From a candidate division WOR-3 bacterium (GTDB lineage Bacteria; Hydrothermota; Tepidihabitantia; Tepidihabitantales; Tepidihabitantaceae), in assembly GCA_039801365.1 (NCBI GenBank), contig JBDRUN010000013.1:1-37985 (forward strand): a stretch of 37,985 bases of DNA, read 5' to 3'. The notes under the pieces were generated by a model, which worked only from the letters and a program-made list of their open reading frames with translations, was not told where the DNA came from and did no database searches. Position numbers and translations under genes: made by a program. Of the stretch, positions 4,300 to 32,548 are shown one piece after another (the stretch's first letter is position 1; every line of letters starts with the position of its first letter).

Positions 4300-4302
4300 G
4301 CG

Positions 4303-4782: not shown

Positions 4783-4788
4783 TCCGCG

Positions 4789-7594: not shown

Positions 7595-7613
7595 GTCAGT
7601 ATCTTGTTCGGTT

Positions 7614-7629
7614 CCTGCCGTGAGGCAGG
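7614..7629 (+). other. Small GNRA-type hairpin between the zinc-ribbon gene and the barrel gene
   Basis: A perfect 6-bp stem (7614-7619 with 7624-7629) closes a GTGA tetraloop, which is a GNRA loop in RNA. It lies 20 nt after the zinc-ribbon stop and 18 nt before the ATG at 7648. It may protect or attenuate the mRNA at the edge of the ribosomal operon. No T-run follows. Confidence 0.35.
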
Positions 7630-7647
7630 GGAAAGTGACGGACCGCA

Positions 7648-10169: not shown

Positions 10170-10270
10170 GGACGCGCTGCCCTGTCCTTGGCGGTACGCG
10201 TATTGCTAGAGGCAAGAATCACCAACTCAGATACAGGCGCAAGAGCCCGAAGCGACGTATTTCTTGTCTG

Positions 10271-11101: not shown

Positions 11102-11147
11102 CGCGGCTGTCCGCTATTTCAACAGCAGCTGCTACTCTAGCCGGACC

Positions 11148-12284: not shown

Positions 12285-12296
12285 TCGATCCTCCTT

Positions 12297-12368
12297 TCAC
12301 TGTTTCTTGCACTTACGATACCAGCCAACACACATTGGGACGCCGGCTTGAAAAAGCCAGTCGTGCAT
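12297..12368 (-). CDS. Candidate 23-residue small protein between tgt and the binding-protein gene
   Basis: A small frame runs from an ATG at 12368 to a TGA at 12297-12299, leaving room only for the AGGAGG of the next gene. The peptide starts 'MHDWLFQAGVPMCVGW' and ends with a Cys-Lys-rich 'YRKCKKQ'. Two cysteines and three aromatic residues in 23 positions are unusual for random sequence. No ribosome binding site is clear; the start lies in a region of CCGATG-like repeats. It could be a real small protein, a leader peptide or chance. A hairpin with a 4-nt loop (12345-12358) lies inside it. Confidence 0.25.
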   Translation of the reverse strand: MHDWLFQAGVPMCVGWYRKCKKQ

Positions 12369-12381
12369 CGGACATCGGTCG

Positions 12382-13566
<1,185 letters not shown>

Positions 13567-13588
13567 TCAGGTCTTTGCGCCTTGTCCT

Positions 13589-14686
13589 CTAGATAACTTC
13601 AAGTTCTGAGAACCCTCCAAGGTTCAGACGCCGCGGAGTTCCCCTGACGGTTGACTCCTCACCAAGAATTGATCGTTCAAGTAATGCCCACTCGACTTGA
13701 GCATTGCGGTTAACAATCGAGTCGCGGATAATCGAGTCGTGGATCTCTGCATCCGAGCCAACTGACACGTTCGGTCCGATGACCGAGTTTCTGATGCTGG
13801 CGTCGTCGTGCACCCAAACCGGAGGCACGAAAACCACCCCCTCACGTTGGCGGTAGTGACCCTGTCTTGCCAGCAGATATCGGTTCGTTGCCAAGAGAGC
13901 ATCTGGAGTTCCGCAGTCAAGCCAGCGGTCGATCCGTTTCGCCCTCATTACCGTACCCGCCTTGAGCATTAGACGCAGCGCATCCGTGAGCTGGAATTCG
14001 TCCCGGGTTCGCTGTCCGGTCTGGATGAGCTCTCGCAGCGAATCAAACAGCACGCAGGCGTCGGTGAAGTAGTACAGCCCGACAATCGCCAAGTTGCTAG
14101 TGGGGTGCTTCGGCTTCTCTACTGCCTGCTTCACAGTATCACCGTCCAGCTCCACGATACCAAACCGCCTCGGGTCCTCCACTTCCTTGACGCCGATAAG
14201 ATTCTCGTGCCCAACCATCTCGGTCATGTTGAGGTCCACAATTGTATCCCCGAGCACGATAAGAATCGGTTCGTGGCCAAAGTAGTCCCGACCTCGATAA
14301 ACGGCATCTCCCAGGCCCTTCGGATCGTCCTGTTCCACAAAGCGGAACCGTGTCCGGTAGCTGGTCTCAAGATAGGACTTTATTTTCCCACCCTGGACGC
14401 CGACTACGACGACGACCTCTTCTGGTCGGGCCGGCAAAAGGCGGTCCATGATGTGGCCGATTATCGGCTTGCCGGCAACCTCAAGCAGGACCTTAGGCGT
14501 GGCGTGCGTATGCGGCCGCAGCCGGCGTCCTTCACCCGCGGCCGGTATCAGGGCTTTGAACCGAATCGCTCCGGCAGACTTCCCTGCCGCGAACTTGGCC
14601 TTGGTCCTGGCTGGCAATTTCCTAGTACACAATGTTTGACTTCTGCGCCCTGAACTCCGACTTCCGACCTCGGACTTCCTCCTCAA
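13589..14686 (-). CDS. Sugar-1-phosphate nucleotidyltransferase with C-terminal beta-helix
   Basis: The enzyme probably makes an NDP-sugar from hexose-1-phosphate. The catalytic core starts near residue 43: 'FKALIPAAGEGRRLRPHTHA', then 'PKVLLEVAGKPIIGHIMDRL', 'LIVLGDTIVDLNM' and 'DEFQLTDALRLML'. After 'DRWLDCGTPDALLATNRYLL' comes a left-handed beta-helix with hexapeptide repeats ('SIRNSVIGPNVSVGSDAEIH'), as in RmlA-long/GlmU-like enzymes. The start is TTG, overlapping the previous stop (TTGA) and backed by GGGAGG 5 nt upstream. The first ~42 residues are a basic, low-complexity extension encoded partly by 7-bp repeats. Its neighbour makes hexose phosphates, which fits a sugar-nucleotide route. 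Sugar identity is not known. Confidence 0.82.
   Translation of the reverse strand: MRRKSEVGSRSSGRRSQTLCTRKLPARTKAKFAAGKSAGAIRFKALIPAAGEGRRLRPHTHATPKVLLEVAGKPIIGHIMDRLLPARPEEVVVVVGVQGGKIKSYLETSYRTRFRFVEQDDPKGLGDAVYRGRDYFGHEPILIVLGDTIVDLNMTEMVGHENLIGVKEVEDPRRFGIVELDGDTVKQAVEKPKHPTSNLAIVGLYYFTDACVLFDSLRELIQTGQRTRDEFQLTDALRLMLKAGTVMRAKRIDRWLDCGTPDALLATNRYLLARQGHYRQREGVVFVPPVWVHDDASIRNSVIGPNVSVGSDAEIHDSIIRDSIVNRNAQVEWALLERSILGEESTVRGTPRRLNLGGFSELEVI
14638..14679 (-). repeat. Six 7-bp tandem repeats at the start of the nucleotidyltransferase gene
   Basis: Read on the minus strand, six adjacent heptamers fill this stretch exactly: two identical GGAAGTC units (14673-14679 and 14659-14665), and CGAGGTC, GGAGTTC, AGGGCGC and AGAAGTC. 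The repeat begins 4 bases after the TTG start codon and encodes part of the non-conserved N-terminal extension. This is the cleanest copy of the heptamer family in the window. Confidence 0.75.
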
Positions 14687-15753
14687 CGTTTCCTCCCTGC
14701 CCAGTCCATTCTGCGTTTCAGTTCGTCTATCCTCGCAACCGGCATAGGATTCACGTGTCGTCGCCGGGCCAGTTCTACGCTTACCATATCACCAAGCATC
14801 AGTAGGGAGAATATCCGGGCGAGCTCGGACCGGCCCTGCGACTCAAGCTGCACTGCCCGATAGTATCCGGTCCGGGTCATTTCCAGTAAGTGCTTCAGGC
14901 GCAGTCTAGTCCGGGTGTGGGTGGCCGCGTCGAGCAGGGCGATGAGTACAGTCCGTTGCGCCAGAAACCGAGGCGCTCCGATGCCGACAAGCTCGTTATG
15001 GTTCTGTTCTGGCAGCGCGTTTACGTGGCACATGACCTTGGCATTCTCGTTGAGCTGGCACTGCCACCGCTCGGCAACTGCGTCCAGCAGCCGGCTGGTG
15101 GAGTACACGACCGGCAGCCGGCTGTCAAGAACCCGTGCCAGCACCCTGGCTCGGTTCAACCACAGACGACGGTTTTTCCTAATCAACCCCACCGCTTCGA
15201 CCAAGTCCTGCCGGTAACTGCGGCATATCCGCAACTGTTCGAGCCCGACCAGTAACGGCACGAAGAGATAACCCAGTGCAGCCCGCGGCGGTAGTCCGGC
15301 CGACAACAGGACAACCGGCACTCCAGCCCGTTGAGCAAGCTCAGCCAGTCGGCCGCCGCTTGTCACCGCGATCACCCGGCACCGTATCCTCCTCGCCTGT
15401 TCGAATGCCGACAGCGTCTCTTCGGTATTGCCTGAATAGCTAACTGCGAAGAAGAGACTTCGGCGTGTCACAATCGCAGGAACTACATAGTCACGACAAA
15501 CGATGATTGGTAGCGTGAGTTCGGAGCCCAGCAGACCGCGCAGAACACTCCCGCCGATTGCCGAGCCACCCATTCCAGCCACAACCACATTGTCGAACCG
15601 TCTGACAGAGCCGTAATCAACCCGGTCTGCGATCGCACGGGCTTGTTCGATCTGCTCTGGCAGGCCAAGCACCAGCGTGAGCATCTGCCGGTAACCGTCC
15701 AGCGCCGCACGAACTTTCGACCCTTGAATTCCGGCATTAGCATCAAGTCTCAT
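14683..15753 (-). CDS. Bifunctional phosphoglucose/phosphomannose isomerase
   Basis: The enzyme interconverts fructose-6-P with glucose-6-P and mannose-6-P. The 356-residue product has the SIS-domain signature of this family: 'NVVVAGMGGSAIGGSVLRGL', 'PIIVCRDYVVPAIV', 'FFAVSYSGNTEETLSAFEQA', 'RVIAVTSGGRLAELA' and 'PPRAALGYLFVPLL'. The C-terminal half carries 'AERWQCQLNENAKVMCHVNA' followed by 'LPEQNHNELVG', which hold the catalytic Glu/His of the archaeal-type enzyme. The ATG overlaps the ptsI stop (ATGA). Placement between PTS proteins and an NDP-sugar synthase suggests it feeds sugar-nucleotide synthesis. Confidence 0.9.
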   Translation of the reverse strand: MRLDANAGIQGSKVRAALDGYRQMLTLVLGLPEQIEQARAIADRVDYGSVRRFDNVVVAGMGGSAIGGSVLRGLLGSELTLPIIVCRDYVVPAIVTRRSLFFAVSYSGNTEETLSAFEQARRIRCRVIAVTSGGRLAELAQRAGVPVVLLSAGLPPRAALGYLFVPLLVGLEQLRICRSYRQDLVEAVGLIRKNRRLWLNRARVLARVLDSRLPVVYSTSRLLDAVAERWQCQLNENAKVMCHVNALPEQNHNELVGIGAPRFLAQRTVLIALLDAATHTRTRLRLKHLLEMTRTGYYRAVQLESQGRSELARIFSLLMLGDMVSVELARRRHVNPMPVARIDELKRRMDWAGRKR

Positions 15754-17531
15754 TCCGCATTCCCCTCGCTGAGTTCGAATACAAATTCCGCGAGCCTGGG
15801 AAACCTTCGGTACAGTTCACGCCGAAGCAACCGCTTGACCTCAAGTGCGGTTCCCAGTTTCATCGCTCTTGCCACGATCTCCTGAGCCGAGCTGACATCA
15901 ACTGATCGGATGATCTTCTTCGTTTCCGGAATCAGCGCCGGAGTAACTGAAAGCTCGTCAATACCTAGACCGAGAAGTACAAGTATGCCCAGTGGGTCTG
16001 ACGCAAATTCACCACACAAGCCGACCCAGATGCCCTGTCGGTGGGCCGCGACAATTGTCTGACGGATAAGTTCGAGAACCGCGGGATGAAGGTTATCGTA
16101 CAAAGCGGTCACCCTTTCGTTTCCGCGGTCCACCGCCAATGTGTACTGAGTCAGGTCGTTGGACCCGATTGAAAGGAACGAGCACTCTCGGGCAAACTGC
16201 TCGGCCAGAATTGCGGCCGATGGCGTCTCGACCATAACTCCCACCTCAAGCTGTTCGTCGAACTCCTTGCCTTCGTGCCGTAGCTCCCGCTTTGCGGTCT
16301 CAAGAATGAGCTTGGCACGCCGCAGTTCGTCGAGCGTGGACACCATCGGGAACATCACCTTGACCGTCCCGTGGGCTGATGCACGCAGCATTGCACGCAG
16401 CTGGTGCTTGAATAGTTCGACGTTGTCCAGACACAGCCGTAGCCCACGCCAGCCGAGAAATGGGTTTGATTCGACGTACCCGGGCACAACCTTGTCCCCA
16501 CCGAGGTCAAATGTCCGGATGATAACCGGCCACGGCTTCATGCTTCGGGCAACCTCGGCATATACCTCAAACTGTTCTTCCTCGGTTGCCGGCTGTAGCC
16601 GGGCAAGGTAGATGTACTCAGTACGGAACAACCCGATGCCTCGCGCCCCACACCGACGCGCGGCTCTAGCTTCGGCCAGAAACTCAATATTGGCCGACAA
16701 ATCAATCATCTTGCCGTCCGCCGTGACCGCCTCCTGCTCGGCGAGTGAAGCAAGTGACCGCCGGTGCCGGCGGTACATCTCCATATCCTTGCGATACCCG
16801 CCCAACCGCTTACGGGTAGGCGATAGAATCGCGAGTCCACGATAACCGTCAACCAACACAAGTTCGCCTGCCTGTGCCGTTCGCATCGCCCCATCAGCCG
16901 CAACAACCGCGGGTATCTCCTTAGCCTTGGCCATGATCGCGGTGTGGGATGTCTTGCCGCCCGCCTCGAGTACTACGCCCTTCACCTTCGCTGGGTCGAG
17001 CAGGGCCGCCTCGGACGGTGGCAGGTCGTGAGCAACAACCACCGCGCCCGACGTTGCGGCCAAGAGCGAATGTGAGTCGGTACCGACCATGTGCCGGAGC
17101 ACACGCGTGCCAACGTCCAGGACGTCCAGTGTCCGTTCCTTGAAAGCAGGTACGGGCGAACCCGTCATCGGCCGGACGATACGCCGCAGGGTCTCGGCGT
17201 ACGCGAACTCCGCATTCCGGTGCTGGTCACGCACGAAATCCTCGGTAGCGTTAAGTACCTCCCGGTCCAGGAGCAGCGCAAGCTGGACCTCGATGAAGTC
17301 GGCAAAATCCCGCCCCATTTCACGTTGGACACGGTCACGCAACTCCCGCAGCTCCCGTTCGGCAGCCTGGATAGCAGTGCGGAAGCGACGGAGTTCAGTG
17401 GCGACAGCAGTGGGTTTGATAATCTGTTCCTTGAACTCTGGTAGATATGGCCGGTACAGGAATGCCTTGCCCTGCGCGAATCCGCGCGAGACCGGTACAC
17501 CCCGTAAAATACGTTCCCTGCTACGTTTCAC
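15750..17531 (-). CDS. ptsI: PTS enzyme I (phosphoenolpyruvate-protein phosphotransferase)
   Basis: Enzyme I takes phosphate from PEP and passes it to HPr. The 593-residue protein is complete. The phosphorylated His196 is in 'EAGGKTSHTAIMAKAKEIPA'; the PEP-binding domain has 'GIGLFRTEYIYL' (Arg303), 'VIIRTFDLGGDK', 'FMFP'-type 'KVMFPMVSTLDELRRAK', 'FLSIGSNDLTQYTLAVDRGN' and the catalytic Cys506 in 'GLCGEFASDP'. A tail of ~20 residues after the usual end is slightly long. The start is GTG, overlapping the end of ptsH by 11 bases. Partners in the window are HPr (17521) and an EIIA (6789). Confidence 0.96.
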   Translation of the reverse strand: MKRSRERILRGVPVSRGFAQGKAFLYRPYLPEFKEQIIKPTAVATELRRFRTAIQAAERELRELRDRVQREMGRDFADFIEVQLALLLDREVLNATEDFVRDQHRNAEFAYAETLRRIVRPMTGSPVPAFKERTLDVLDVGTRVLRHMVGTDSHSLLAATSGAVVVAHDLPPSEAALLDPAKVKGVVLEAGGKTSHTAIMAKAKEIPAVVAADGAMRTAQAGELVLVDGYRGLAILSPTRKRLGGYRKDMEMYRRHRRSLASLAEQEAVTADGKMIDLSANIEFLAEARAARRCGARGIGLFRTEYIYLARLQPATEEEQFEVYAEVARSMKPWPVIIRTFDLGGDKVVPGYVESNPFLGWRGLRLCLDNVELFKHQLRAMLRASAHGTVKVMFPMVSTLDELRRAKLILETAKRELRHEGKEFDEQLEVGVMVETPSAAILAEQFARECSFLSIGSNDLTQYTLAVDRGNERVTALYDNLHPAVLELIRQTIVAAHRQGIWVGLCGEFASDPLGILVLLGLGIDELSVTPALIPETKKIIRSVDVSSAQEIVARAMKLGTALEVKRLLRRELYRRFPRLAEFVFELSEGNAE

Positions 17532-21789: not shown

Positions 21790-23094
21790 CTATCGATTTC
21801 CGGCCAAAAGCACGAAGCCGGTCGTACTGCTGCCGGCACGTGTGTCAATCCGCACAAGATAGGTGCCGCCGGGCAGCGCGCTGCAGTCGAGTGTAGTATC
21901 CGAACCGTAATCCACAATAGCCAGTCCTCGAGTCAGCACGCAACGGCCGAGTGCGTCGAAGACGCGCAGCCTGGCGTCTTGCATTCCAGAGCCCGGAACC
22001 CTGCGGACCTTCAGACTGACAGCACCGGCTTGTGTTACACTCGGCTCAACTTGGAGCTGCGCCAGCCTGGAACCGGCAATGCAAGACCTGAAATCTGGAT
22101 TCTCTCCAACCCCGCCCAGTCCTCTAACCCAGGTCCTGCCGCCATCCGTGGTGAACAGCACCACGGAATTGCCCGCAGCCATGCCACGCAGGGTATCGGC
22201 AAACTCGATGTCGAAGAGTGTGGTATCAACTGCCGTCGACTGTAGTACCCAGCTCGTACCACGGTCTGAGGTATGGATAATCGTACCGTTTCGGCCGCAC
22301 GCCCAGCCATGGTCGCCGACGAACGTCACCGAACGCAGAAATCTTGTGCCACCCGGCAAGCTTTGCTCCAACCACGTCGTACCTCCGTCCGAGGTGTGAA
22401 GTACAACGCCAGCCATTGTCCGGTCATTACCGCCCACGACCCAGGCGGTCTGTTCATCGCTTGCAGCCACGTCATAGAAATCATACACTGTGTCGACCCG
22501 TTGCAAGGTCCACGTAGCGCACCCATCTGTTGTCTTGGTAATGTATCCCTGACCAAAGGCAAATGTGTCCCCTCCTTCAGGAAAACGGCCAGCAACAAGC
22601 CAGCCGGTCTCGCGGGTGACGAAGCGGACGCCTTGGAAGTCAACTGTGTCCGACGGATACGGCGGCCTGGGGAAAAATGTCATGTCCCATTCCTCGCCAC
22701 CGTTGGTAGTGTGGAGCAAGATTGCTTCGCCGCCCGAAGACCAGCCGTACTGCATGTCTAGGAATCTAATTCTGGTTGCGAACTTAGGTCCACCCAGGTT
22801 CTGCCGCGCCCAGTTCTCGCCGCCGTCGGACGTGTGCCAGATGTCACCGACCCGGCCGCAGGTCCAGCCATTGAGTTCATCCAGAAAGCAAACATCGAAG
22901 AAGTCTCGGAACGTGCCGATCGTCTGGGGTTGCCAGTTTGCGCCGAAGTCAGTGGTGTGATAGACCGCGGTAGTTTCGATTGTCACAACCCAGGCATTCA
23001 TTCCGTCGGGTGCGACCGCAACACCATGGTAGATTTCACCTTCGATGCCGTAGGCCGCAACCAGTACACCACATAACAGCAAGGCTGTTTTCAT
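21790..23094 (-). CDS. YCF48-like beta-propeller surface protein with Por-secretion tail
   Basis: A 434-residue secreted protein. It starts with a signal peptide ('MKTALLLCGVLVAAYG'). Six or more repeats of 'xGWxxGxxGxIxHTSDGGxxW' follow, for example 'LNGWTCGRVGDIWHTSDGG' and 'HGWACGRNGTIIHTSDRGTS', the pattern of YCF48/BNR-type propellers. The last ~75 residues are a type IX tail ('LRVFDALGRCVLTRG', 'SALPGGTYLVRIDTR'). YCF48 in cyanobacteria helps assemble photosystem II, but such repeats in secreted proteins are general interaction propellers. Start: ATG at 23094 with AGGAG 5 nt upstream; the TTG at 23109 was not used. It is the last gene of the pgs-led series. Confidence 0.85.
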   Translation of the reverse strand: MKTALLLCGVLVAAYGIEGEIYHGVAVAPDGMNAWVVTIETTAVYHTTDFGANWQPQTIGTFRDFFDVCFLDELNGWTCGRVGDIWHTSDGGENWARQNLGGPKFATRIRFLDMQYGWSSGGEAILLHTTNGGEEWDMTFFPRPPYPSDTVDFQGVRFVTRETGWLVAGRFPEGGDTFAFGQGYITKTTDGCATWTLQRVDTVYDFYDVAASDEQTAWVVGGNDRTMAGVVLHTSDGGTTWLEQSLPGGTRFLRSVTFVGDHGWACGRNGTIIHTSDRGTSWVLQSTAVDTTLFDIEFADTLRGMAAGNSVVLFTTDGGRTWVRGLGGVGENPDFRSCIAGSRLAQLQVEPSVTQAGAVSLKVRRVPGSGMQDARLRVFDALGRCVLTRGLAIVDYGSDTTLDCSALPGGTYLVRIDTRAGSSTTGFVLLAGNR

Positions 23095-23124
23095 TACCAC
23101 TCCTTTCAAGTGCTTCCGCTTCTC

Positions 23125-26100
23125 CTATCTGTGCCCTGAAAGGACAAGCAGTTTATCGTGCAGCATTCTCTGTTTGGCGACCGAAAGTTGGACAAGGTAT
23201 ACACCGCTCGGCAGGCTCTGGCAGTCGAGCGGAATGGCCAATGACCAATCACTGCTGACCAGTGACCGATTGAGAACGCACCGCCCCGCCGCGTTGTAGA
23301 TAAAGACGCTGAGTTCTGGAACACTTAGGCCCTGGAACCCATGAAGCCTGAGCGAAGCAAATCCGCCTGCAATCGGATTTGGGCTCAGCCGCATTCCAAA
23401 GTCCTGCCCTCTGACCCCTGTTTCCTTGTCCCTGACACCAATGAACGTGTCCGGCGGGTTGGTGGTGAACCGTATCGCTCTACCGGATAGAACCTCGGCT
23501 GCTGCTGCCGGATACGCGCCGGCAAACGTGTACTCAATGCCGTCCGAATGATCGGGATTCATGATTCCGACTGTAGCGAAGTTGTGGCTGTTCTGCCAAA
23601 GGCTGTCGTCGTTCTGGACCGTGCGATACTGGCAGAGTATCGGTCCGTCTCCGGTCTTGGTCTGGTGAAACGCCGGGTCGAGCAAGAAAACTTGAAAACT
23701 CTGCTGTTCGGCCCGTATCGGTGGCCTGAATCCGTGCACGTGTACGCACCGGCTCCACTCGACGATGAACCGGTGTCCAGTCAAGTCATAGTACCCGAAA
23801 ACGCCGCCAACCGGAAGCGAATCTGCTCGGAAATCATCCCAGAACACAGCAATCAGGCCATCCGGGCCTGAGGCCGAAGGAATGTGCCAGTTGTATATCT
23901 CTCCCTGGGGATTGGCGTCGAACGCCAGATATCCGTTGTCACACACGCCAACCCGGGCATAGTCGCGGCCATAGAACCTGAAGTTGAACGGCAGGTCAAC
24001 CTGCCTGACCTGATCGTTGCCCAGTTCAATAGCAGTGCCCGGCCCGCCCAGGCCCGGGTCAATCTCAAACCAATCGTACAACGGCCGCTCCCCATACCCG
24101 ACATCGGTATCGTCGTACGCGTAGTAGCCGTGTCGGTCCGGACCCAGCGGCGCATCTGACCTCGGTTCGCCAACCACTACCGTGAAGTCACGTACCTGCC
24201 TCACTCCGCCTTGGGCCGATACAACAAGCCTGAGGGTAAACTTGCGACCCACACCGACATCCGGTTCAGCTCTAACTAGGAACCGGTCGGTGATGTTGGA
24301 CGCGGACTCAGCCGGTGCAATCGTTCCGAAAGTGCCTAGTGAATCCAGTACCTTTACCCCCCCAGGGTTGAGCGAAACGAGCAGACCGGTAGCACTGTCG
24401 GCCGGAGCGGCTCCGTGGTTCCGAACCGTGGTAGAGAAGCTAACTGTTTCGCCTGGGTCGAGGAATCCATTGGCGTCGTGCACAGTATAGCTGGTCACCA
24501 CAAGTGTTGGGCCTGTTACTGTTACCTCAAACGCCGAGTTCCATGCGCTGTCCGTACTTGTGACGGCAAGTTCGAAGCCAAGTGTCTGCCCGCTGGTGCA
24601 TGCTGCCGCGACCGTCACCTCGAACGCGGGTGCGGTGTAACTCGCGCCAGGCGCCAGGTCACCGAAACTACGTACCGAGTCGGTTACAAGCGCAAAGCTG
24701 TCTTGAGCACGTAGCCGTGCGACGACGCTGTGCGCGGTCAAGCTACTGCCGTAGTTCTTCAAGGTCACGGCAATGTTCGCGGGACCGCCCGGCTGGACTG
24801 AGGATGGCATATGCGACTCGTACCCGACGAATACACCTGCCGGAACACCAACCGAATGGCCAAGGTACGGTGCAAGGTTAGGACCGGTGACAGTCACAAG
24901 CATCGTGTCCGTGGTCTGAGTGAAGATGGCAAACCGGGCGCGACCCGAGACGTCGGTACGTCCGGTCTTGCTACCCTCCGCAGTTCTGAGACACACAACC
25001 GCGTCTCGAACTGGAAAACCTGAGGCATCGGTCACCGTTACGTCAAAAACACTGCTCCCCTTGAAGAAACTGGCCGGATGGGATACATTCAGGCAACGCG
25101 GAACGCTAGTCCACATCTGCAGCGAAGGGTCACCAAGTAGATTGTACACCTGAAAATATGCTCTCAGGTCAAATGAGTCCTCAGCCAATGGAAAATTCTC
25201 AAGTTGCTCAATTTTGCCCAAGTACATCGCCGGCCCACACGTCAGAACATTCCAGTCCAGGATGGCACGGTAGATGCCATAGTCCATGCAGTTGTTCCAC
25301 CGCGTCGAGGTCCCGGTCCAGCTCGCGCCCCAGAATGCGACCCCGCCCTTCGGGTTCGTCGGAGTACCTGCCCGAAGCCACACCTCGCCAAAGCAAGGGT
25401 TGCGAGCATAGTTGCCAGTCCCACAGTAGATACTGGTCACGACCGGCAGCTTCCAGCCATTAGCGAGCGCGGCGACGTCGTTGCTCAAAAACTCAGGATA
25501 CCCCCAGCCATCGTAGTTGCCCCATCCCCGACCGTTGATGAAAGCCACTCCCTGATTGACCGATGAATCTACCGGTCCTCGACCGTAACGGGTCGGTGGG
25601 TAGAACACCGTATCAACACTAGAGAATCCACGTGTCAGCAGCCGTTCCCGTATCACCCGTTTGGTCACAATCGCGGTCACGGCCGGCGTACCGCCTTCCT
25701 GATAACTGGTGCCCACCGCAAGCGCCCGGCGGTACCAGGTCGTATCGGCAAGGTACGGATTCGCCTCGTAGCCCAGTATTTTGGCCACGATGACGTCCAG
25801 CTCAGAAGCATTGGCCGCCGGCAACCGGCCCACAAACAGGTCGGCGAGGAAGTCGTCACCATCAACACAGGAATATGGATGGTCAGACACGTGCTGGGGA
25901 ATTGAGTAATGAAACGCCGGTATCTTGTTGATGGCGCCGACGAGCATGACATAACTCGGCTTCGGAGTCCATGTCTGATAGGCAGTCCTGATATAGGCCT
26001 GTATCTGTTCTCTTGTGGTGCCGGTTTCTGATGTTTTCTTCACCCAAACGCAGTAACCCTTGCGCTCCTTCCACCGAGCCAGGGGCAGGACGTTCGAATA

Positions 26101-26613
26101 GAAGTCGTCCGGCACGATAACAAGACAGCCCGGCTGGTCGTTGGAGAACTCCGGCACGCCACCAAGCACAAGCGAGCGCACAAGTTCCGACATTAGGTTA
26201 CCATCACCAGGGGACTCGTAACCGACGGAATAGGTAAGCTCGATACTCATCCGGCGACACCGGACAATCTGACCTGGTTTTGCGCCTGTCCTGATGCGTG
26301 CAACATGCAGTGGCACGACATCCACGCCCGCTGCGGTCATCACTTGTCCGAACCCGACCAAGTCATCTGGTGGGCAAAACTCTGCAAGCCTGGCATCAGT
26401 GACCGTTACTGTGTCCAAATCTAGAATTCTGACCTCAGGAACCAAACCTCCAGGCGCCGGCACCAGCCGGGCATACGCCGGCTCAGTTGATTCTGCGTCC
26501 GGCATTGTAACATCGAGCCGGATGCACATCGGAGTTACTGCCCTGATGCTCCACTCCGGCCGCTCCAATCCACCTTCAACAGCAAGAACTAAGAAGCACA
26601 AGAAAAACATCAC
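23125..26613 (-). CDS. Gingipain-family (peptidase C25) surface protein with Por-secretion tail
   Basis: A 1162-residue secreted protein. A short signal is followed by a ~130-residue propeptide-like region. Residues ~160-500 form the C25 domain: 'PGCLVIVPDDFYSNVLPLAR', 'SYVMLVGAINKIPAFHY', 'DFLADLFVGRLPAANA', 'VVTSIYCGTGNYARNPCFGE' with candidate nucleophile Cys397, 'GVAFWGASWTGTSTRWNN' and 'YNLLGDPSLQMW'. The histidine of the GHG motif is replaced: residues 361-363 read GRG. After this come Ig/CARDB-like modules, a 'YYAYDDTD' adhesion-type domain and a type IX tail ('MRLSPNPIAGG', 'LPSGVYLVQLSV'). Start: GTG at 26613 (or the ATG that follows), 9 nt after AGGAG in the end of the upstream gene. 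Confidence 0.88.
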   Translation of the reverse strand: MMFFLCFLVLAVEGGLERPEWSIRAVTPMCIRLDVTMPDAESTEPAYARLVPAPGGLVPEVRILDLDTVTVTDARLAEFCPPDDLVGFGQVMTAAGVDVVPLHVARIRTGAKPGQIVRCRRMSIELTYSVGYESPGDGNLMSELVRSLVLGGVPEFSNDQPGCLVIVPDDFYSNVLPLARWKERKGYCVWVKKTSETGTTREQIQAYIRTAYQTWTPKPSYVMLVGAINKIPAFHYSIPQHVSDHPYSCVDGDDFLADLFVGRLPAANASELDVIVAKILGYEANPYLADTTWYRRALAVGTSYQEGGTPAVTAIVTKRVIRERLLTRGFSSVDTVFYPPTRYGRGPVDSSVNQGVAFINGRGWGNYDGWGYPEFLSNDVAALANGWKLPVVTSIYCGTGNYARNPCFGEVWLRAGTPTNPKGGVAFWGASWTGTSTRWNNCMDYGIYRAILDWNVLTCGPAMYLGKIEQLENFPLAEDSFDLRAYFQVYNLLGDPSLQMWTSVPRCLNVSHPASFFKGSSVFDVTVTDASGFPVRDAVVCLRTAEGSKTGRTDVSGRARFAIFTQTTDTMLVTVTGPNLAPYLGHSVGVPAGVFVGYESHMPSSVQPGGPANIAVTLKNYGSSLTAHSVVARLRAQDSFALVTDSVRSFGDLAPGASYTAPAFEVTVAAACTSGQTLGFELAVTSTDSAWNSAFEVTVTGPTLVVTSYTVHDANGFLDPGETVSFSTTVRNHGAAPADSATGLLVSLNPGGVKVLDSLGTFGTIAPAESASNITDRFLVRAEPDVGVGRKFTLRLVVSAQGGVRQVRDFTVVVGEPRSDAPLGPDRHGYYAYDDTDVGYGERPLYDWFEIDPGLGGPGTAIELGNDQVRQVDLPFNFRFYGRDYARVGVCDNGYLAFDANPQGEIYNWHIPSASGPDGLIAVFWDDFRADSLPVGGVFGYYDLTGHRFIVEWSRCVHVHGFRPPIRAEQQSFQVFLLDPAFHQTKTGDGPILCQYRTVQNDDSLWQNSHNFATVGIMNPDHSDGIEYTFAGAYPAAAAEVLSGRAIRFTTNPPDTFIGVRDKETGVRGQDFGMRLSPNPIAGGFASLRLHGFQGLSVPELSVFIYNAAGRCVLNRSLVSSDWSLAIPLDCQSLPSGVYLVQLSVAKQRMLHDKLLVLSGHR
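23240..23267 (-). repeat. Four 7-bp tandem repeats inside the secretion tail of the C25 protein
   Basis: On the minus strand the units are GGTCACT, GGTCAGC, AGTGATT and GGTCATT, adjacent and in register. They encode 'RSLVSSDWS' within the tail domain. The unit resembles the heptamers of cyanobacterial short tandem repeats. Confidence 0.6.
23402..23436 (-). repeat. Five 7-bp tandem repeats in the linker before the secretion tail of the C25 protein
   Basis: On the minus strand the units read GTCAGGG, ACAAGGA, AACAGGG, GTCAGAG and GGCAGGA. They encode the hydrophilic 'VRDKETGVRGQDFG' linker placed directly before 'RLSPNP'. The position matches the repeat at 571-619 in the kelch protein. Confidence 0.6.
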
Positions 26614-26619
26614 AGAAAT

Positions 26620-27843
26620 CTACTCCTCTTTTCTGATTACTACTAGTCCGGAATCACGGTCGCAACAGAAGACGAAACCCTGATATTCCTCAGCTCCCCG
26701 TGTGTAGTTCGTGCTGACCTGAGCTGCAAGTACGGGTGCGGTCGGGTCTTTCACATTAACAACCGCCAGTCCGGCGTCCGAACAGCCGACATAGACCAGG
26801 GAATCCGCGACCGAAATCCGATTCGCATAACCAGCCAATGACAGCGAGGCGACAATCCGCGGTTCTGGGGGGTGCGTCACATCTGCAACGATCAGCCCAT
26901 TACGGCCATCGGCGACATAGAGGTGGTTGTTTTGAACAGCAACCCCGCGGGCATTTGACGGCGTGTCAAAACTACCCACCTGGGTCGGCGGTATTGCGCT
27001 GATATCCCAGACGGCAACTCCAAGCTGTTCCAGAGCCAGATAGCAGTAGTTTCCTGACAGACAGATACCTCGAAGCCCACGCGGATACCGGCTCTGAAAT
27101 ACTAGGTTCGGGTATCTGGGGTCTCGAACATTCACGACCAGAAACTGAGCGTCGGCCGCAATGTATACCATCGAGTCCTGGCACGCGATGTCGTAACCGA
27201 ACCCGGGCTGAGGATACTCAAGCTCACCAACCTTCTTCAGGCTCTCTGGCCTGGAAACGTTGACCGTCATCAGCTCTTTGTATCCGTACGCAAGGTGCGC
27301 ATAGTCACCATTGACCATCACACCCCATGCCTCGTTCAGGGAGTCCATTATCGAACCGAGCAATCGCGGCTGTTCTGGACTCGTCACGTCAAACACCGAA
27401 AGCCCAGCCTGACCATCTGCAACATACACACGGCCATCAGCAACCCAGATATCCTGCGCGTAACCCTGAGTCTTGTGGCTGGCTATAATCCTGAACCGCA
27501 CAAGGCTTACATCCCAGACCTCTGACCAGCCACCCCACGCACCCCTTGCGTCCCGCGCCCGAACACGCCACCAGTATTTCCCGTCGGTTACGAGGCTGAC
27601 GGCAACTTCGGTCTGCTCGGTCGTGTCATCGGCAATCACGCGCTCAAAGTCATCGTCTGCCGCAACCTGCAGGTTATAGCACGCGGCCTCGGCCAGCTCC
27701 CGCCACGAGAACGATACTTCGGAACGGGTCAGATTCGAACCTCCGGCCGGTGCCGACAGCTGTACCGGCCCTAGCCCGGACAGCGGGTGGTTACACGCGC
27801 ATAATACGAACAAGGCACAGGCAAGCACGGCACAAACTCTCAT
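26620..27843 (-). CDS. LVIVD-repeat lipoprotein with an Fn3-like domain
   Basis: The 407-residue product has a lipoprotein-type leader ('AVLACALFVLCAC', likely lipidated at Cys17). Residues ~25-115 form an Fn3/Ig-like domain ('YWWRVRARDARGAWGGWSEV'). From ~120 on there are LVIVD-type repeats, about 40 residues each: 'IWVADGRVYVADGQAGLSVF', 'VYIAADAQFLVVNVRDP', 'CYLALEQLGVAVWDIS', 'LYVADGRNGLIVADVTHP' and 'VYVGCSDAGLAVVNVKDP'. These fold as a beta-propeller on the cell surface; the ligand is unknown. The ATG follows the barrel gene stop by two bases, with AGGGGG upstream. Its stop lies inside the ribosome binding site of the C25 gene, so the two are coupled. Confidence 0.85.
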   Translation of the reverse strand: MRVCAVLACALFVLCACNHPLSGLGPVQLSAPAGGSNLTRSEVSFSWRELAEAACYNLQVAADDDFERVIADDTTEQTEVAVSLVTDGKYWWRVRARDARGAWGGWSEVWDVSLVRFRIIASHKTQGYAQDIWVADGRVYVADGQAGLSVFDVTSPEQPRLLGSIMDSLNEAWGVMVNGDYAHLAYGYKELMTVNVSRPESLKKVGELEYPQPGFGYDIACQDSMVYIAADAQFLVVNVRDPRYPNLVFQSRYPRGLRGICLSGNYCYLALEQLGVAVWDISAIPPTQVGSFDTPSNARGVAVQNNHLYVADGRNGLIVADVTHPPEPRIVASLSLAGYANRISVADSLVYVGCSDAGLAVVNVKDPTAPVLAAQVSTNYTRGAEEYQGFVFCCDRDSGLVVIRKEE

Positions 27844-27845
27844 CG

Positions 27846-28883
27846 TCAGCCCCCTGAAAACAGGTCTGTGGGATTCATTCTCACCCCAAGTGTCAAACGA
27901 TTCTGCCGGTACTGCTTGACATCCTCGATTTTCTCACTGTAAGGCGACCACACGTCGCGCCATTCGAGCTCATACCTGAAGCTGAGCCTTGTCCGGCCTA
28001 GCCGGTACCCGGCCCCGACCGCAACATTCTCAATGTCATCCTCACGACCTGCATGTGCCGGGTCAGCTGGACCTGCAGTGTAAGTTCGAAGCTCGACATT
28101 GTAGCTGGCTTCGAAATCGAACCGAGTCCGCTCCGGCCGCACCGCAAGAACAAGACCGAGCTCGTGCTGATTGTAGGAAATGTCCGGTTTCGAGCCTCTT
28201 GCCCGAGCCAGCTTGCGCTCGTACTCAGCCTGGAACCTGAACTGGTGAGAAGGTTGAAACGCCGCACTGCCACCAAAACGGTGCGCCCGCGTGTCATAGC
28301 AGTCAAAAGCCGGTAGATAGTCATCCCACTCATGCCGATAGCTGGGAACGACCTCGAAACAGCCCAGCTTCAACTCAACTTTGGCGTTAGCAAGATACTC
28401 GGTGTACCGACAAGCGACATAATCCCCGACCCCTGAGGCCGGATTACGGTAGTACCGTACCAGATACCCGGGCATCCAAAGGAACGACGCCCTCGCTGTT
28501 GCCAGTCTAGTGATACGCTGTCCAACACCGACTTCAAGCAGCCCGTAGCTTTTCTCCCAGTTTGACACGTACTGGTGCATTCTTGTTCGCAGCGTTGCCA
28601 AGCCGCGGCGGCCGGCGGTGCCGAACCGATAGGTACAACCGACTCCGATCACGACGTCTAAGTCATCGCTTGTTCTTATCGGGAACCTTTTCGGCTCGGA
28701 TCCGAGCCGGAACGCCTCAAGGTCTGCAGCCGAGTAGCGAAACAGATTGTCATCGTACGTGAACGCGACGTCAAAGTAGCCGGTGAGAACCGGCGGACTT
28801 ACGACCGGCCCAGCCGCGGCGATGGAGAGCAGCGCGGCCAGTAGACTACTCGTACTTTTCGATGGCAATCGTCTCAACAACAA
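27846..28883 (-). CDS. Predicted outer-membrane barrel protein in the gamma-polyglutamate operon
   Basis: A ~345-residue exported protein of no recognised family. After a signal peptide ('SSLLAALLSIAAAGPVVS') comes 'GYFDVAFTYDDNLFRYS', a phrase typical of barrel proteins with an 'xDDNLFRY' first strand. Then come alternating amphipathic strands with many Tyr/Arg ('QFRFQAEYERKLARA', 'RTRFDFEASYNVELRTY', 'RTRLSFRYELEWRDV', 'QNRLTLGVRMNP'). I count roughly 14-16 strands. It could be a porin-like channel. The start is uncertain: TTG at 28883 has GGAG 8 nt upstream, with TTG at 28868 or 28901 as alternatives. All overlap the end of the previous gene. Confidence 0.65.
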   Translation of the reverse strand: MLLRRLPSKSTSSLLAALLSIAAAGPVVSPPVLTGYFDVAFTYDDNLFRYSAADLEAFRLGSEPKRFPIRTSDDLDVVIGVGCTYRFGTAGRRGLATLRTRMHQYVSNWEKSYGLLEVGVGQRITRLATARASFLWMPGYLVRYYRNPASGVGDYVACRYTEYLANAKVELKLGCFEVVPSYRHEWDDYLPAFDCYDTRAHRFGGSAAFQPSHQFRFQAEYERKLARARGSKPDISYNQHELGLVLAVRPERTRFDFEASYNVELRTYTAGPADPAHAGREDDIENVAVGAGYRLGRTRLSFRYELEWRDVWSPYSEKIEDVKQYRQNRLTLGVRMNPTDLFSGG

Positions 28884-29763
28884 TCCCTGCACTCCTGGCA
28901 AACGTACCGCTCAGTGTGATTACCAGCGGGTGTACACCTTCGCCAAGTGCGAAGCGAACAGTGGCTTCGCTGGACGGCACAACATCTGTAAGGTTCTCGT
29001 AACTGGCCACCGTGGACCTCACCACCCGCAAGTTCTTCCGATCAATCGCGCTATCCTGCTCCTGAACTGCAAGGACAAAGTTCTGCGCCCCTTGCATCTC
29101 AGCAGTGTAGTTGAGTCTTGTCCTAATTCTCACCCGGCACGGACCAGCAATTTCGACCCGCGCCGACTCGCCCGGTCGGAGTTCATACAGCCGCTCCTTG
29201 TTGCCGGCCTGCACGAGAAAAAGCTCTCTGCCGTGCAGCTCCACTGCTTTCCAAGCCGCAGGCTTCCTGAACGAGAATCTCACGCCGACTGCGCTGGCCG
29301 GCGCATCATTCAGCACCAGCCGGTACCGGTTCTCTCCAGCCGGAACCTCGATGTAGAAAGACCGCCACCGGCCGACCGGCTGACCAGCCGGTCCATAACT
29401 TGACCCTGAACGCCGGGTGCGAAACTCAAGCGGTCGCTCAACGTCGTCTTGCCAGAGCGACAGCCGATACACATACTCTGAGTCACCGGACACTGGCAGC
29501 CACAGCCGGGTAAACACCCGCAACCATTCCGGGCCTGTGACCGAGAACTCCAGCGGCTTTTCCCTGGTCACAAGATAGTAGTCAAGCTCCACCCGGCGTA
29601 CCACGCTGACTCTGGCGGTCCCGGCCGAACCGGTCACCTTCACGCCTGCCGCGGACGCAACGCCTACTACCGCCAACAGCGCGACAAACGCTCTTATCAA
29701 CAATGCCCCACTTGCTCGGTGTCTGGAAACCGCAGCCTGAAAACTGTCGGCTTTCCCTGTCAT
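28846..29763 (-). CDS. Exported protein of unknown function in the gamma-polyglutamate operon
   Basis: A 305-residue protein with a signal peptide ('LLIRAFVALLAVVGVASAAG'). The mature part is all-beta by appearance: 'VSVVRRVELDYYLVTREKPL', 'VYRLSLWQDDVERPLEFRTR', 'FYIEVPAGENRYRLVLNDAP' and 'EGVHPLVITLSGTFARSAGI'. It looks like two or three Ig/jelly-roll units and has no cysteine-rich or catalytic motif that I can see, apart from a single Cys. No family is recognised. The ATG overlaps the pgsW stop (ATGA) and its end overlaps the barrel gene, so it is translated together with both. A periplasmic adaptor or carbohydrate/polymer-binding role would fit but is not shown. Confidence 0.7.
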   Translation of the reverse strand: MTGKADSFQAAVSRHRASGALLIRAFVALLAVVGVASAAGVKVTGSAGTARVSVVRRVELDYYLVTREKPLEFSVTGPEWLRVFTRLWLPVSGDSEYVYRLSLWQDDVERPLEFRTRRSGSSYGPAGQPVGRWRSFYIEVPAGENRYRLVLNDAPASAVGVRFSFRKPAAWKAVELHGRELFLVQAGNKERLYELRPGESARVEIAGPCRVRIRTRLNYTAEMQGAQNFVLAVQEQDSAIDRKNLRVVRSTVASYENLTDVVPSSEATVRFALGEGVHPLVITLSGTFARSAGIVVETIAIEKYE

Positions 29764-30851
29764 ACCGCCTCCTCTTCAGGTGCGGGATTTCTGCTGATGT
29801 ATGACTCGATGTCGTAGCGGACAGTGAACCAGAGCATCAGGGCCAGGGCGATGACAAAAATAGCGGCCAGGCCGACTGAATACTGGCGCTGAAAGAACAG
29901 CCTGCCTTTCCCAACCTCGGGGATAGGCACCGGCGCAACTGGCAGTCCGTAAGCCAGAGCGACCCGGGTTGGATTACCGAGGTACGCAACCGGCTTTCTC
30001 TGTTTGAGCAGTGAAGCGATAGTGCCTTGGCTCCCCATTTTCGCAGTCGGCTTTCGCAGCACTCGGGAAGGTACCTGAGCCAGTGGGTCACCAATATCGG
30101 CAACTACTCTCCCAACCGATACGATAGCACGTGCGTTTCTGAATGCCTCCAGCCGGCGCTGAACGGTTAACTCTGGGTCGGCCGGTACGACCAGTTCGAC
30201 CTGTGCTGACTCAGCCGCAGCGGCAAGCATCGCCCGGCCTTCGGGTGAGAGTCCACGTCCGTCGTCCGCTTCGCCGCCCAATGTCGCGAACTCGGTCCGG
30301 TAATCAAACAGCCCTGCCTCATTCAGAACCCGCTCAATGTCGAGCCAGGTCATACCCGGCCAATTCGCGCCCCACATTCCCGCGCTTTGGCTCGTCACTA
30401 TTACCGGTTTGAGTTCCATGCATCGACACACTGCCAGCAACTCGATGTTCAGTGCCGGGTAGGTACCGTCCCAACTGATTCCGACCTGGTCGCCCCTCCG
30501 TACGCCAGTCTGGACCAGAAGTTCAAGAACCGCAGCCGCGAAATTCGGATTCAGAGTCGTGAGCGCGTCCGAAAGGTCAGAACGCCCGTAAGTAAGCTCC
30601 GAGTACTGCGCGCCAACAAGCCCAGTCTTGTTCGGGTCGTTGACCGTATCTATCGGTATTCCAAGCCGCTCCCTCATTCTGAACACCGCCTTGAACGCCG
30701 CCTTACTCAGACGTGCCGCAGCAAGCTTCTCCTCGTAGAACCGGGTCCGACGGTATCGGGCCGAACTGTGCTCAAACGTGAATAGTACAAGTGCCAACAC
30801 TGCCAGACCGACCAGCACCCAACGATTTACCTTGCCGTGCCGCCGCCGCAC
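29760..30851 (-). CDS. Poly-gamma-glutamate system protein PgsW-like
   Basis: The 363-residue protein has a transmembrane helix near each end ('WVLVGLAVLALVLFTFEHSS' and 'AAIFVIALALMLWFTV') with a large domain between. The domain has 'GLVGAQYSELTYGRSDL', 'GDQVGISWDGTYPALNIELL', 'PVIVTSQSAGMWGANWPGMT' and 'VSVGRVVADIGDP'. These agree with my memory of the protein family found next to PgsB and PgsC in Gram-negative bacteria such as Leptospira (TIGR04332). It may help polymerisation or translocation at the inner membrane; its biochemistry is not established. GTG start overlaps the pgsC stop (TAGTG). No pgsA homologue is present. Confidence 0.8.
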   Translation of the reverse strand: MRRRHGKVNRWVLVGLAVLALVLFTFEHSSARYRRTRFYEEKLAAARLSKAAFKAVFRMRERLGIPIDTVNDPNKTGLVGAQYSELTYGRSDLSDALTTLNPNFAAAVLELLVQTGVRRGDQVGISWDGTYPALNIELLAVCRCMELKPVIVTSQSAGMWGANWPGMTWLDIERVLNEAGLFDYRTEFATLGGEADDGRGLSPEGRAMLAAAAESAQVELVVPADPELTVQRRLEAFRNARAIVSVGRVVADIGDPLAQVPSRVLRKPTAKMGSQGTIASLLKQRKPVAYLGNPTRVALAYGLPVAPVPIPEVGKGRLFFQRQYSVGLAAIFVIALALMLWFTVRYDIESYISRNPAPEEEAV

Positions 30852-31294
30852 TAGAAAACCCCTCCAGATATGAGTGTCACAACCAGCCGTGTGAACACCG
30901 CTGCCACGAACATCGTCGCCACAGTCTCAACCACGCCCTGACGGACCATCCAGTAGGCCACCAGTCCGGGTATTACGTACCCAATAACGCCGATATTGAG
31001 TGCGGTCTGTCCCATATGCCACTCCGGCGCGATTCTGGTAAGATAGCCGAGCAGATAAGCGATGAGCACGGCAAGCACCAGCATCCTTCGGCCATATACG
31101 AGCATGAACCGATCCAGAACCCGCAACACAACGAAGGTTGCGAGTGCCACCACAACCGTGGCGCCGACCCGGACCGGGTCGTGCAACAGAAGCGCAATAT
31201 ATCCGGGCACAACGATACCACCAGCCGCCAGCCCGACCGTCTCGGTCATGAGGAACGATGCCAGCATTCCGAGTCCGATGGTCTCAACCAGCAT
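30851..31294 (-). CDS. pgsC: Poly-gamma-glutamate synthesis protein PgsC/CapC
   Basis: A 147-residue membrane protein with about four to five hydrophobic helices ('LGMLASFLMTETVGLAAGGI', 'VGATVVVALATFVVLRVL', 'MLVLAVLIAYLLGYL' and 'IGVIGYVIPGLVAYWMV'). It has the family's 'GxxVPGYIALxLxDPVRVxxT' segment. PgsC works with the ligase PgsB in making gamma-polyglutamate at the membrane. Length is normal for the family. It overlaps the end of pgsB by 11 bases and shares bases with pgsW. Confidence 0.9.
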   Translation of the reverse strand: MLVETIGLGMLASFLMTETVGLAAGGIVVPGYIALLLHDPVRVGATVVVALATFVVLRVLDRFMLVYGRRMLVLAVLIAYLLGYLTRIAPEWHMGQTALNIGVIGYVIPGLVAYWMVRQGVVETVATMFVAAVFTRLVVTLISGGVF

Positions 31295-32492
31295 GCGGTC
31301 CCCTCCTATCTCCGCTCGATGCTTCGGGCACTGCTATCTGTGTCTGCCCGGCCTGCACAAAATATCGAGTCAACTCTTCGCCATACCCTACGGTATTCCC
31401 GCACGCAAACACAAGACAAGCGTCTTCAATCAGCCCGGCAAGGAACTCAAACACCTCCCTCGGCGGTATCTCGTCTCCAAGGTCCACAATCCGGTCCGGT
31501 GGGATGCCAAGTTCGCGGCATCGGGCAATGAATATCCGGGTCAGACCGCCGGTCGCAACATAAACGCGGCATTCAAACCCGCGCACCAGCTCAGCCATCT
31601 GTCTTGACCGGTCCTGCCGGTCGCGGCGGCAGTTGACAAGCACGATCCGGTCCTGCGAACGGTTCTTCACCATGTTCCAGAGCATGCCGATTGAGTCCGG
31701 GTCATTTGCCGCCAGCGCGTTCACAAACTCAAACCGGCTGCCCTTGACTGCAAGCTGGTGAATACGCAGTACGCCCGAGTCCGGTAGGCTGCGTTTCATC
31801 CCAGCCAGGGCCGCCTGCCGGTCAACTCCGACCGAGGCACACACCGCCAGAGCCAAGGCGACATTCTCCTTGTGCTCGACGTACTCAAATCCGTACATCT
31901 CTCGGTCGGACACCGTTTCTGGGTCAGCTAGGACGACCTCACGGTTGCCGCGTCCGGTCCTGCGTAGCTCAGCAAGATATGTCCGCTCCGCGGTGAAAAG
32001 CACCCCATGGGCAGGTAGAGCGCGCCGAAAAGAACGGGCAACATCCTTTACGGTCGGGCCCATAACGTCAAGATGGTCGGCACGAACATTGGTGACTACC
32101 GAGTGAGTCGGCCTGACAAGCCGCTGGTTCTCAATCCGCTGATACTGCGGGTCCAGTGACATGTTCTCAATAACGAGCGCTTCAGCCGCCATCGAACGAG
32201 CTAGCCTGACCATCCGCAACTGCTCGGCGATGCCGGCCTTCCCAATCCGGCGCACCGGCTTTTCCAAGTGGTCGCCGAGTATGAACCGTGGTCTTGTACC
32301 GGTGACCTTTGCAACTGTCCGGATGCCGCCGGCGCGCAGCCCGGCAGCTATCAGCCTTGTGACCGAAGACTTGCCCCTGGTGCCGTTGACAAGAATCCGG
32401 ATCGGAATCCGATTGAGGTTTCGTCGGTGCAGCCCATATTCGGCCGCGCCATAGCCTACGAAGAGCAACAGCAGAACAAGCAGGAACAGCAT
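31284..32492 (-). CDS. pgsB: Poly-gamma-glutamate synthase PgsB/CapB
   Basis: PgsB is an ATP-dependent amide ligase related to Mur ligases; it adds glutamate through the gamma-carboxyl. The 402-residue product has an N-terminal hydrophobic helix ('LFLLVLLLLFVGYGAAEYGL'), the ATP loop 'ILVNGTRGKSSVTRLIAAGL', then 'VTGTRPRFIL', 'VIENMSLDPQYQRIENQRLV', 'SVVTNVRADHLDVMGPTVKD' and 'GFECRVYVATGGLTRIFI'. Length is normal. The ATG at 32492 has no strong ribosome binding site. The leader is only ~21 nt from the predicted start of transcription. First gene of an apparent 8-gene series that runs to 21790. Confidence 0.92.
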   Translation of the reverse strand: MLFLLVLLLLFVGYGAAEYGLHRRNLNRIPIRILVNGTRGKSSVTRLIAAGLRAGGIRTVAKVTGTRPRFILGDHLEKPVRRIGKAGIAEQLRMVRLARSMAAEALVIENMSLDPQYQRIENQRLVRPTHSVVTNVRADHLDVMGPTVKDVARSFRRALPAHGVLFTAERTYLAELRRTGRGNREVVLADPETVSDREMYGFEYVEHKENVALALAVCASVGVDRQAALAGMKRSLPDSGVLRIHQLAVKGSRFEFVNALAANDPDSIGMLWNMVKNRSQDRIVLVNCRRDRQDRSRQMAELVRGFECRVYVATGGLTRIFIARCRELGIPPDRIVDLGDEIPPREVFEFLAGLIEDACLVFACGNTVGYGEELTRYFVQAGQTQIAVPEASSGDRRGPHAG

Positions 32493-32520
32493 CTGCTTTC
32501 AGCAACCCTGGGGCCGTTCG

Positions 32521-32548
32521 ATTATACGCTGGCAGCTCCTTCTGTCAA
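32521..32548 (-). promoter_or_regulatory. Perfect-consensus sigma70 promoter of the pgsBCW operon
   Basis: On the minus strand both hexamers match the consensus exactly: TTGACA (32543-32548) and TATAAT (32521-32526), with a 16-bp spacer. The start site should be near 32514, about 22 bases before the pgsB ATG. Such a promoter predicts strong, constitutive expression unless a repressor acts; no operator-like inverted repeat overlaps it. Bases 32549-32633 toward the YgiQ gene hold only a small hairpin (GGGCA-TC-TGCCC). Confidence 0.85.

Follow-up and report, generated by a model that had tools for sequence, protein, structure and literature searches.

How gamma-polyglutamate, a long charged polymer, would leave a cell that is surrounded by an outer membrane is the question raised by an operon in a candidate division WOR-3 bacterium (GenBank assembly GCA_039801365.1). 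The window, i.e., the whole stretch of DNA that was analysed, comprises 37,985 nucleotides (contig JBDRUN010000013.1, positions 1 to 37,985) and contains eight tightly packed genes on the minus strand, running from 32492 to 21790: pgsB, pgsC, pgsW, a gene for an exported protein that we call exp, a gene for a barrel protein, and genes for an LVIVD lipoprotein, a C25 protein, and a YCF48-like protein. A survey of capsule systems has pointed out that in diderms, crossing the outer membrane takes an additional protein, and the polyglutamate model of CapsuleFinder, which consists of CapA to CapE and PgsS, has no outer-membrane part (PMC5542703). The operon supplies a specific candidate for each of two steps, namely a periplasmic adaptor and a channel in the outer membrane, which makes the question directly testable. 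We propose that it encodes a dedicated route that would carry the product of PgsBCW across the periplasm and the outer membrane, a reading to which we give a probability of roughly 0.6.

The eight genes form an unbroken run, and their coordinates and junctions were all as the original prediction had given them. pgsB and pgsC overlap by 11 bases, pgsC and pgsW overlap in TAGTG, pgsW and exp in ATGA, and exp and the barrel gene by 38 bases. Further downstream, the barrel and LVIVD genes are separated by 2 bases, the LVIVD and C25 genes by 6 bases, and the C25 and YCF48 genes by 15 bases in case of a TTG start, or by ~31 bases in case of an ATG start.

The exported protein and the barrel

The strongest sign that exp and the barrel work together comes from gene fusions. 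Seven long barrels of ~490–590 residues, encoded in four Eisenbacteria loci (L103, L108, L116, and L119), a Gemmatimonadota metagenome-assembled genome (MAG) (L115), and two further MAGs (L100 and L130), all carry an exp-type domain at their N-terminus (E-values of 1e-26 to 7e-6), as detected with an exp-domain profile that was built leaving out these seven loci. The separate exp gene is retained as well. Since outer-membrane barrels have their N-terminus in the periplasm, the fused exp domain would be positioned at the mouth on that side. Because of this fusion, exp and the barrel very probably act together as one device.

The barrel gene (27846–28883) encodes a 345-residue protein with an N-terminal signal-like helix, which had been put forward as an outer-membrane barrel from the sequence. 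AlphaFold, using 45 sequences, confidently predicts a barrel of 14 strands, with a predicted local distance difference test score (pLDDT) of 92.6 and a predicted template-modelling score (pTM) of 0.85, in support of this identity. The model has the characteristics of an outer-membrane beta-barrel, namely an even strand count and long loops at one end opposite short turns at the other, whereby closure of the barrel was judged from DSSP and Foldseek only. The closest solved structures found by Foldseek are CymA and OmpG, which also have 14 strands, yet share 10% identity with the protein and are diffusion channels. The window barrel scored above the cut-off in no Pfam or NCBIfam family and showed no convincing sequence relative in the PDB, and several members of its family match Pfam outer-membrane barrel families, including one of the 45 that weakly matches the PelB barrel. 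Assuming a topology with the termini inside, all 26 positions that are conserved in at least 80% of the members are located at the extracellular end or in the outer loops, and the invariant or strongly conserved residues on this outer side are N46, D73, D74, K111, R143, C158, D197, D234, R266, D274, H277, R280, R309, and K323.

The exp protein (28846–29763) is predicted to be all beta (AlphaFold, 50 sequences, pLDDT 91.7), and its two halves, residues ~46–170 and 176–303, are copies of one beta-sandwich domain (hhalign probability 99.6%, E-value 6e-25). It exceeds the cut-off of no family in Pfam or NCBIfam and has no convincing sequence relative in the PDB, while a Pfam search over all exp members gave stray weak matches only. 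Tandem CBM22 modules are among its best Foldseek neighbours, but at 12% identity, with a low whole-protein TM-score, and with no catalytic partner here.

Recurrence of the operon

The original prediction proposed to follow both genes in relatives, and exp and barrel indeed remain beside the pgs genes, both in WOR-3 relatives and in other phyla. The set of close relatives consisted of 60 related genomes and the window's own (61 in total; genomes and loci are numbered G and L, respectively). pgsW and pgsB (the latter above its cut-off) are each present in 41 of them, the barrel in 40, and exp in 39, and neither exp nor the barrel ever occurs in two copies in one genome. Without pgsW, exp or the barrel is found only as contig-end fragments, in G012 and G059. 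Conversely, G014, G028, and G050 have pgsW but no exp, and G028, G035, and G050 have pgsW but no barrel; the cases of G035 and G050 are at contig ends. The 41 mapped loci share one gene order, with varying neighbours upstream and downstream, and the genes that flank the operon in the window (YgiQ, HerA-like, MBL-fold, and mutL) were not seen again in any of the other 40. Of note, pgsW is truncated in G058 (L111/L069), and exp and the barrel are located ~46 kb away, owing to either a rearrangement or an assembly error.

A wider scan of 84,980 species genomes, using a PgsW alignment and one peptide pattern, yielded 75 loci, some of which belong to genomes already in the 61-genome set; phylum names of the carriers are taken from the submitters' titles. 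Among loci whose contig extends far enough, exp is the gene after pgsW in 63 of 68, and a homologous barrel comes next in 46 of 63, with a different barrel-like protein in a further 12. On the same basis, the LVIVD gene is present in 38 of 54 loci and the C25 gene in 32 of 51. The order pgsB-pgsC-pgsW-exp-barrel, with or without LVIVD-C25-YCF48, occurs in WOR-3/Stahlbacteria/Hydrothermota, Eisenbacteria, Neomarinimicrobiota, Cloacimonadota, Gemmatimonadota, and further MAGs, and the identity of exp and the barrel to the window copies drops to ~15–35% across these phyla, indicating that the arrangement is not due to chance. In a quick PgsW tree, Bacteroidota, Eisenbacteria, and Neomarinimicrobiota each form one group (support of 100, 100, and 93, respectively, in the Shimodaira-Hasegawa-like approximate likelihood ratio test), which fits mainly vertical descent.

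In Bacteroidota, 14 loci keep pgsB-pgsC-pgsW-exp. Nine of these continue with a barrel-like protein of 272–297 residues that weakly resembles DUF2490 (E-value of 0.004 for one member), for which homology to the window barrel is not established (hhalign probability 12%). Three others encode a barrel-like protein of 376–385 residues that, with an hhalign probability of 93.4%, is probably homologous to the window barrel. As Bacteroidota place either a DUF2490-like barrel or a remote homologue at the same spot, a barrel appears to be kept even though its family changes. A small lipoprotein precedes most of the DUF2490-like barrels, and in L105, L106, L107, L109, L122, L123, and L136 a conserved lipoprotein of ~240 residues is encoded between exp and the barrel-like protein, the one in L105 showing carboxypeptidase-regulatory-like domain matches. 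In L106, a Flavobacteriia MAG, exp is split into two open reading frames (11052–11993), perhaps by a frameshift or an assembly error.

The synthase core and the proposed export route

The first three genes were assigned by family. The ligase subunit PgsB (31284–32492), with the P-loop GTRGKSS, scores 380.9 bits against an equivalog cut-off of 222.7 (TIGR04012), and the membrane subunit PgsC (30851–31294) scores 112.8 bits against an equivalog cut-off of 96.45 (TIGR04011) and 105.3 against 27 (PF14102). PgsW (29760–30851), annotated as 'poly-gamma-glutamate system protein', is encoded directly after pgsC, beside pgsB, and reaches 219.6 bits against a cut-off of 100 (TIGR04332). It shares 65% identity with a homologue in a WOR-3 MAG, its named relatives thus placing the organism in this division, had no convincing relative in a PDB sequence search, and, judging from a hydrophobic stretch near each end, probably has a periplasmic middle domain. 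On these family grounds the product of the operon would be gamma-polyglutamate.

This operon shares the PgsB and PgsC synthase core with the PgsBCA/CapBCADE systems of Bacillus and the Gram-negative Fusobacterium nucleatum, but differs from them in having PgsW, in lacking an adjacent PgsA/CapA and, in the whole genome, a CapD-type enzyme, and in adding a periplasmic protein and an outer-membrane barrel. The claim that PgsA/CapA is missing holds for the operon, where Pfam found no PF09587 match, but not for the genome, which has PF09587 matches on three other contigs, unlinked to the pgs operon. Such PgsA/CapA-domain proteins occur in 50 of the 61 genomes, including the window's, again unlinked and also in genomes without pgs genes, and they are absent from G022, G023, G025, G028, and G041, which are each at least 92% complete and all contain pgsW. 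In Bacillus subtilis, the polymer was made by PgsBC alone (PMC6029982). Because PgsA/CapA is either unlinked or absent, and because of this B. subtilis result, it is plausible that PgsW takes the place of PgsA. A search of the genome for a CapD-type gamma-glutamyltranspeptidase (PF01019) was likewise negative, with a control that was positive in 8 of 14.

The general design, an inner-membrane synthase, a periplasmic adaptor, and an outer-membrane barrel, is that of the synthase-dependent exopolysaccharide exporters AlgK/AlgE, PgaA, BcsC, and PelB, in some of which the adaptor is fused to the barrel. The window system would work in a similar manner, but it is no member of this group. Exporters of the AlgE/PgaA/BcsC type combine 16–18 strands with tetratricopeptide repeats, whereas here 14 strands are combined with a tandem of beta-sandwiches, and apart from the single PelB-barrel match mentioned above, no sequence relation to these exporters was found. 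The barrel's C-terminal part weakly resembles EpsL (TIGR03014), but with 25.4 bits it stays far below the cut-off of 275, and the Poly_export domain of the OPX proteins (Wza/KpsD) matched none of the operon proteins (Pfam, E≤1).

Taken together, PgsB and PgsC would join glutamate through gamma linkages into a polymer at the inner membrane, and PgsW would stand in for PgsA. The tandem beta-sandwiches of exp, which resemble carbohydrate-binding modules, may then guide the chain through the periplasm, and exp may attach to the barrel from the periplasmic side, as suggested by the fusion proteins. The polymer would leave the cell through the 14-stranded barrel, whose conserved residues at the extracellular end might serve as a gate or retain the chain. 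The LVIVD lipoprotein, the altered C25 protein, and the YCF48-like protein might be accessory surface parts that anchor or organise the polymer, the C25 protein probably being sent out by the type IX system. It is also somewhat better than an even bet that the system represents a polyamide (gamma-polyglutamate) exporter, composed of a 14-strand barrel and a tandem beta-sandwich periplasmic adaptor, that is unrelated to the known polysaccharide exporters and has been passed on mainly vertically in WOR-3, Eisenbacteria, Neomarinimicrobiota, Cloacimonadota, and Bacteroidota, with the barrel swapped in much of the last group. If true, there is a route for a long charged polymer through the outer membrane that is independent of polysaccharide exporters, and the operon marks likely polyglutamate producers among uncultured phyla.

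This reading is favoured by the conserved gene order, by the near-strict single-copy co-occurrence of exp and the barrel with pgsB and pgsW while flanking genes vary, by the fusion proteins, by the confident 14-strand fold with CymA and OmpG as closest structures, by a lumen that is net positive in most members, by the presence of a barrel in Bacteroidota even where its family differs, and by the outer membrane of the cell. Several observations weigh against such an export route. The Foldseek TM-scores are moderate for the barrel (~0.45–0.54) and only 0.2–0.3 for exp, and a 14-strand barrel is narrower than the 16–18-strand exporters of alginate and poly-N-acetylglucosamine. The charged lumen that the original prediction proposed to look for is weakly supported: estimated from strand alternation and not from coordinates, the mean net charge in the family is +6.4, and it is positive in 42 of the 45 members, but the window's own barrel has a net charge of only +1. 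Moreover, G028 (L096/L051), a 99% complete genome, has pgsBCW alone, and in the 97% complete genome of G014 (L038) the barrel directly follows pgsW and exp was not found, thus the module is not indispensable everywhere.

The alternative explanations overlap with the export reading and with each other, and the probabilities attached to all of them need not add up to one. The barrel might be a surface anchor or a Wzi-like capsule-assembly protein, with the polymer leaving the cell elsewhere. Provided that the barrel has the usual topology, the placement of all 26 conserved positions at its extracellular end is what one would expect of a binding site, and surface-type partner genes come after the barrel; however, Pfam shows no OPX or other outer-membrane exporter among the operon proteins, and a fused exp domain at the periplasmic N-terminus would be needless for anchoring a polymer on the outside, so that we regard an anchor as unlikely. 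It seems less likely again that the barrel is an enzyme of the outer membrane, with an active site at the extracellular mouth, that would take over the role of CapD or PgdS in cutting, releasing, or attaching the polymer. Invariant or strongly conserved residues, including C158, D274, and H277, are indeed present on the outer side of the barrel, the genome search gave no gamma-glutamyltranspeptidase, and the C25 protein has an altered site, but the closest folds are diffusion porins and not barrel enzymes.

A slightly smaller chance still is given to a product other than a free polyglutamate capsule, such as another gamma-glutamyl or amide-linked envelope molecule. The product was assigned from gene families alone, and a review doubts that the Francisella capBCA locus makes the capsule of this organism (PMC4688374). 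On the other hand, pgsB, pgsC, and pgsW all score above curated cut-offs, and a study on a Cloacimonadota enrichment describes DAPI (4′,6-diamidino-2-phenylindole)-stained polyglutamate clumps, although it refers to the operon of its phylum member as capBCA (PMC13082233). That ordinary envelope genes lie beside the pgs genes by chance, sharing a neighbourhood and no function, is very improbable. Relatives of the C25 and YCF48 genes do occur elsewhere in the fetched loci, but exp and the barrel are single-copy and found essentially only with pgsB and pgsW, in several phyla and with changing flanks; among the 61 genomes they are away from the pgs genes only in the G058 pair and in contig-end fragments, and an exp-type domain is fused to the barrel.

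Part of the system has been described before. Fusobacterium nucleatum is cited as the first Gram-negative polyglutamate producer to be reported (PMC3815933), and polyglutamate genes of Cloacimonadota have been reported as capBC or capBCA (PMC8542988, PMC13082233), with no barrel mentioned in the accessible parts of these papers. Literature on the name 'PgsW' gave unrelated matches only, an overview of WOR-3 is silent on glutamate, capsule, and outer membrane, and no description of exp, the barrel, or any outer-membrane component for polyglutamate was found in the open-access literature. The synthase core and the Cloacimonadota polyglutamate genes were therefore known, and the part formed by exp and the outer-membrane barrel appears to be new.

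Surface proteins, promoter, and flanking genes

Omp85 proteins are encoded in the genome, and a search of 21 genomes, including the window's, gave SprA matches in every one, indicating that the cell has an outer membrane. Inner and outer membranes have been reported for the cultured WOR-3 strain sy37 (PMC12285271). The gene following the barrel (26620–27843) encodes a lipoprotein with a lipobox-like LCAC motif, an Ig-like domain, and an LVIVD propeller (PF08309, 118.5 bits). Next comes the gingipain-like C25 protein (23125–26613), which scores 212.7 bits against a cut-off of 23 (PF01364), aligns with gingipain R2 (E-value 4.6e-27), and carries a type IX sorting tail (TIGR04183, 24.8 bits versus a cut-off of 23). 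In the alignment of the catalytic domains, NYTGHG of gingipain R is matched by INGRGWG, so that the catalytic histidine is replaced, and all 58 operon-linked C25 copies, a number that includes some genomes fetched twice, have lost this histidine and kept the cysteine. Ordinary proteolysis is therefore unlikely, and the earlier suggestion that this protein could be the missing hydrolase is not supported. The last gene (21790–23109) encodes a YCF48-like beta-propeller (PF14870, 95.6 bits), whose sorting tail is weak (18.7 bits, below the TIGR04183 cut-off of 23).

The genes at this end differ between lineages. After YCF48, the window has an MBL-fold gene where many WOR-3 relatives have a second C25-like gene (L031, L073, L078, L079, L081, L085, L089, L095, and other WOR-3 loci). 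In the Neomarinimicrobiota loci L126, L129, L132–L135, L139, and L099, C25 is followed, in the position of YCF48, by a secreted protein, 700 or more residues long, with RQGVHIEWQRTGD near its start and WSDTRTGDRDIYVQK-like motifs. An extension of the operon into the MBL-fold gene, mutL, and miaA is unsupported, since, of the first 41 loci, only the window's contains relatives of the MBL-fold gene and mutL. Directly upstream of pgsB, a sigma-70-type promoter sequence, TTGACA-16-TATAAT (32521–32548, minus strand), matches the consensus at 12 of 12 positions, against a mean of 0.1 in shuffled sequences, and is a consensus match only. Elsewhere in the window, the stretch from 2678 to 17531 resembles a housekeeping region, with genes for ribosomal protein S4, RNA polymerase alpha, ribosomal protein L17, a nucleotidyltransferase, a phosphotransferase system (PTS) EIIA protein, TGT, and a PTS enzyme I-like protein.

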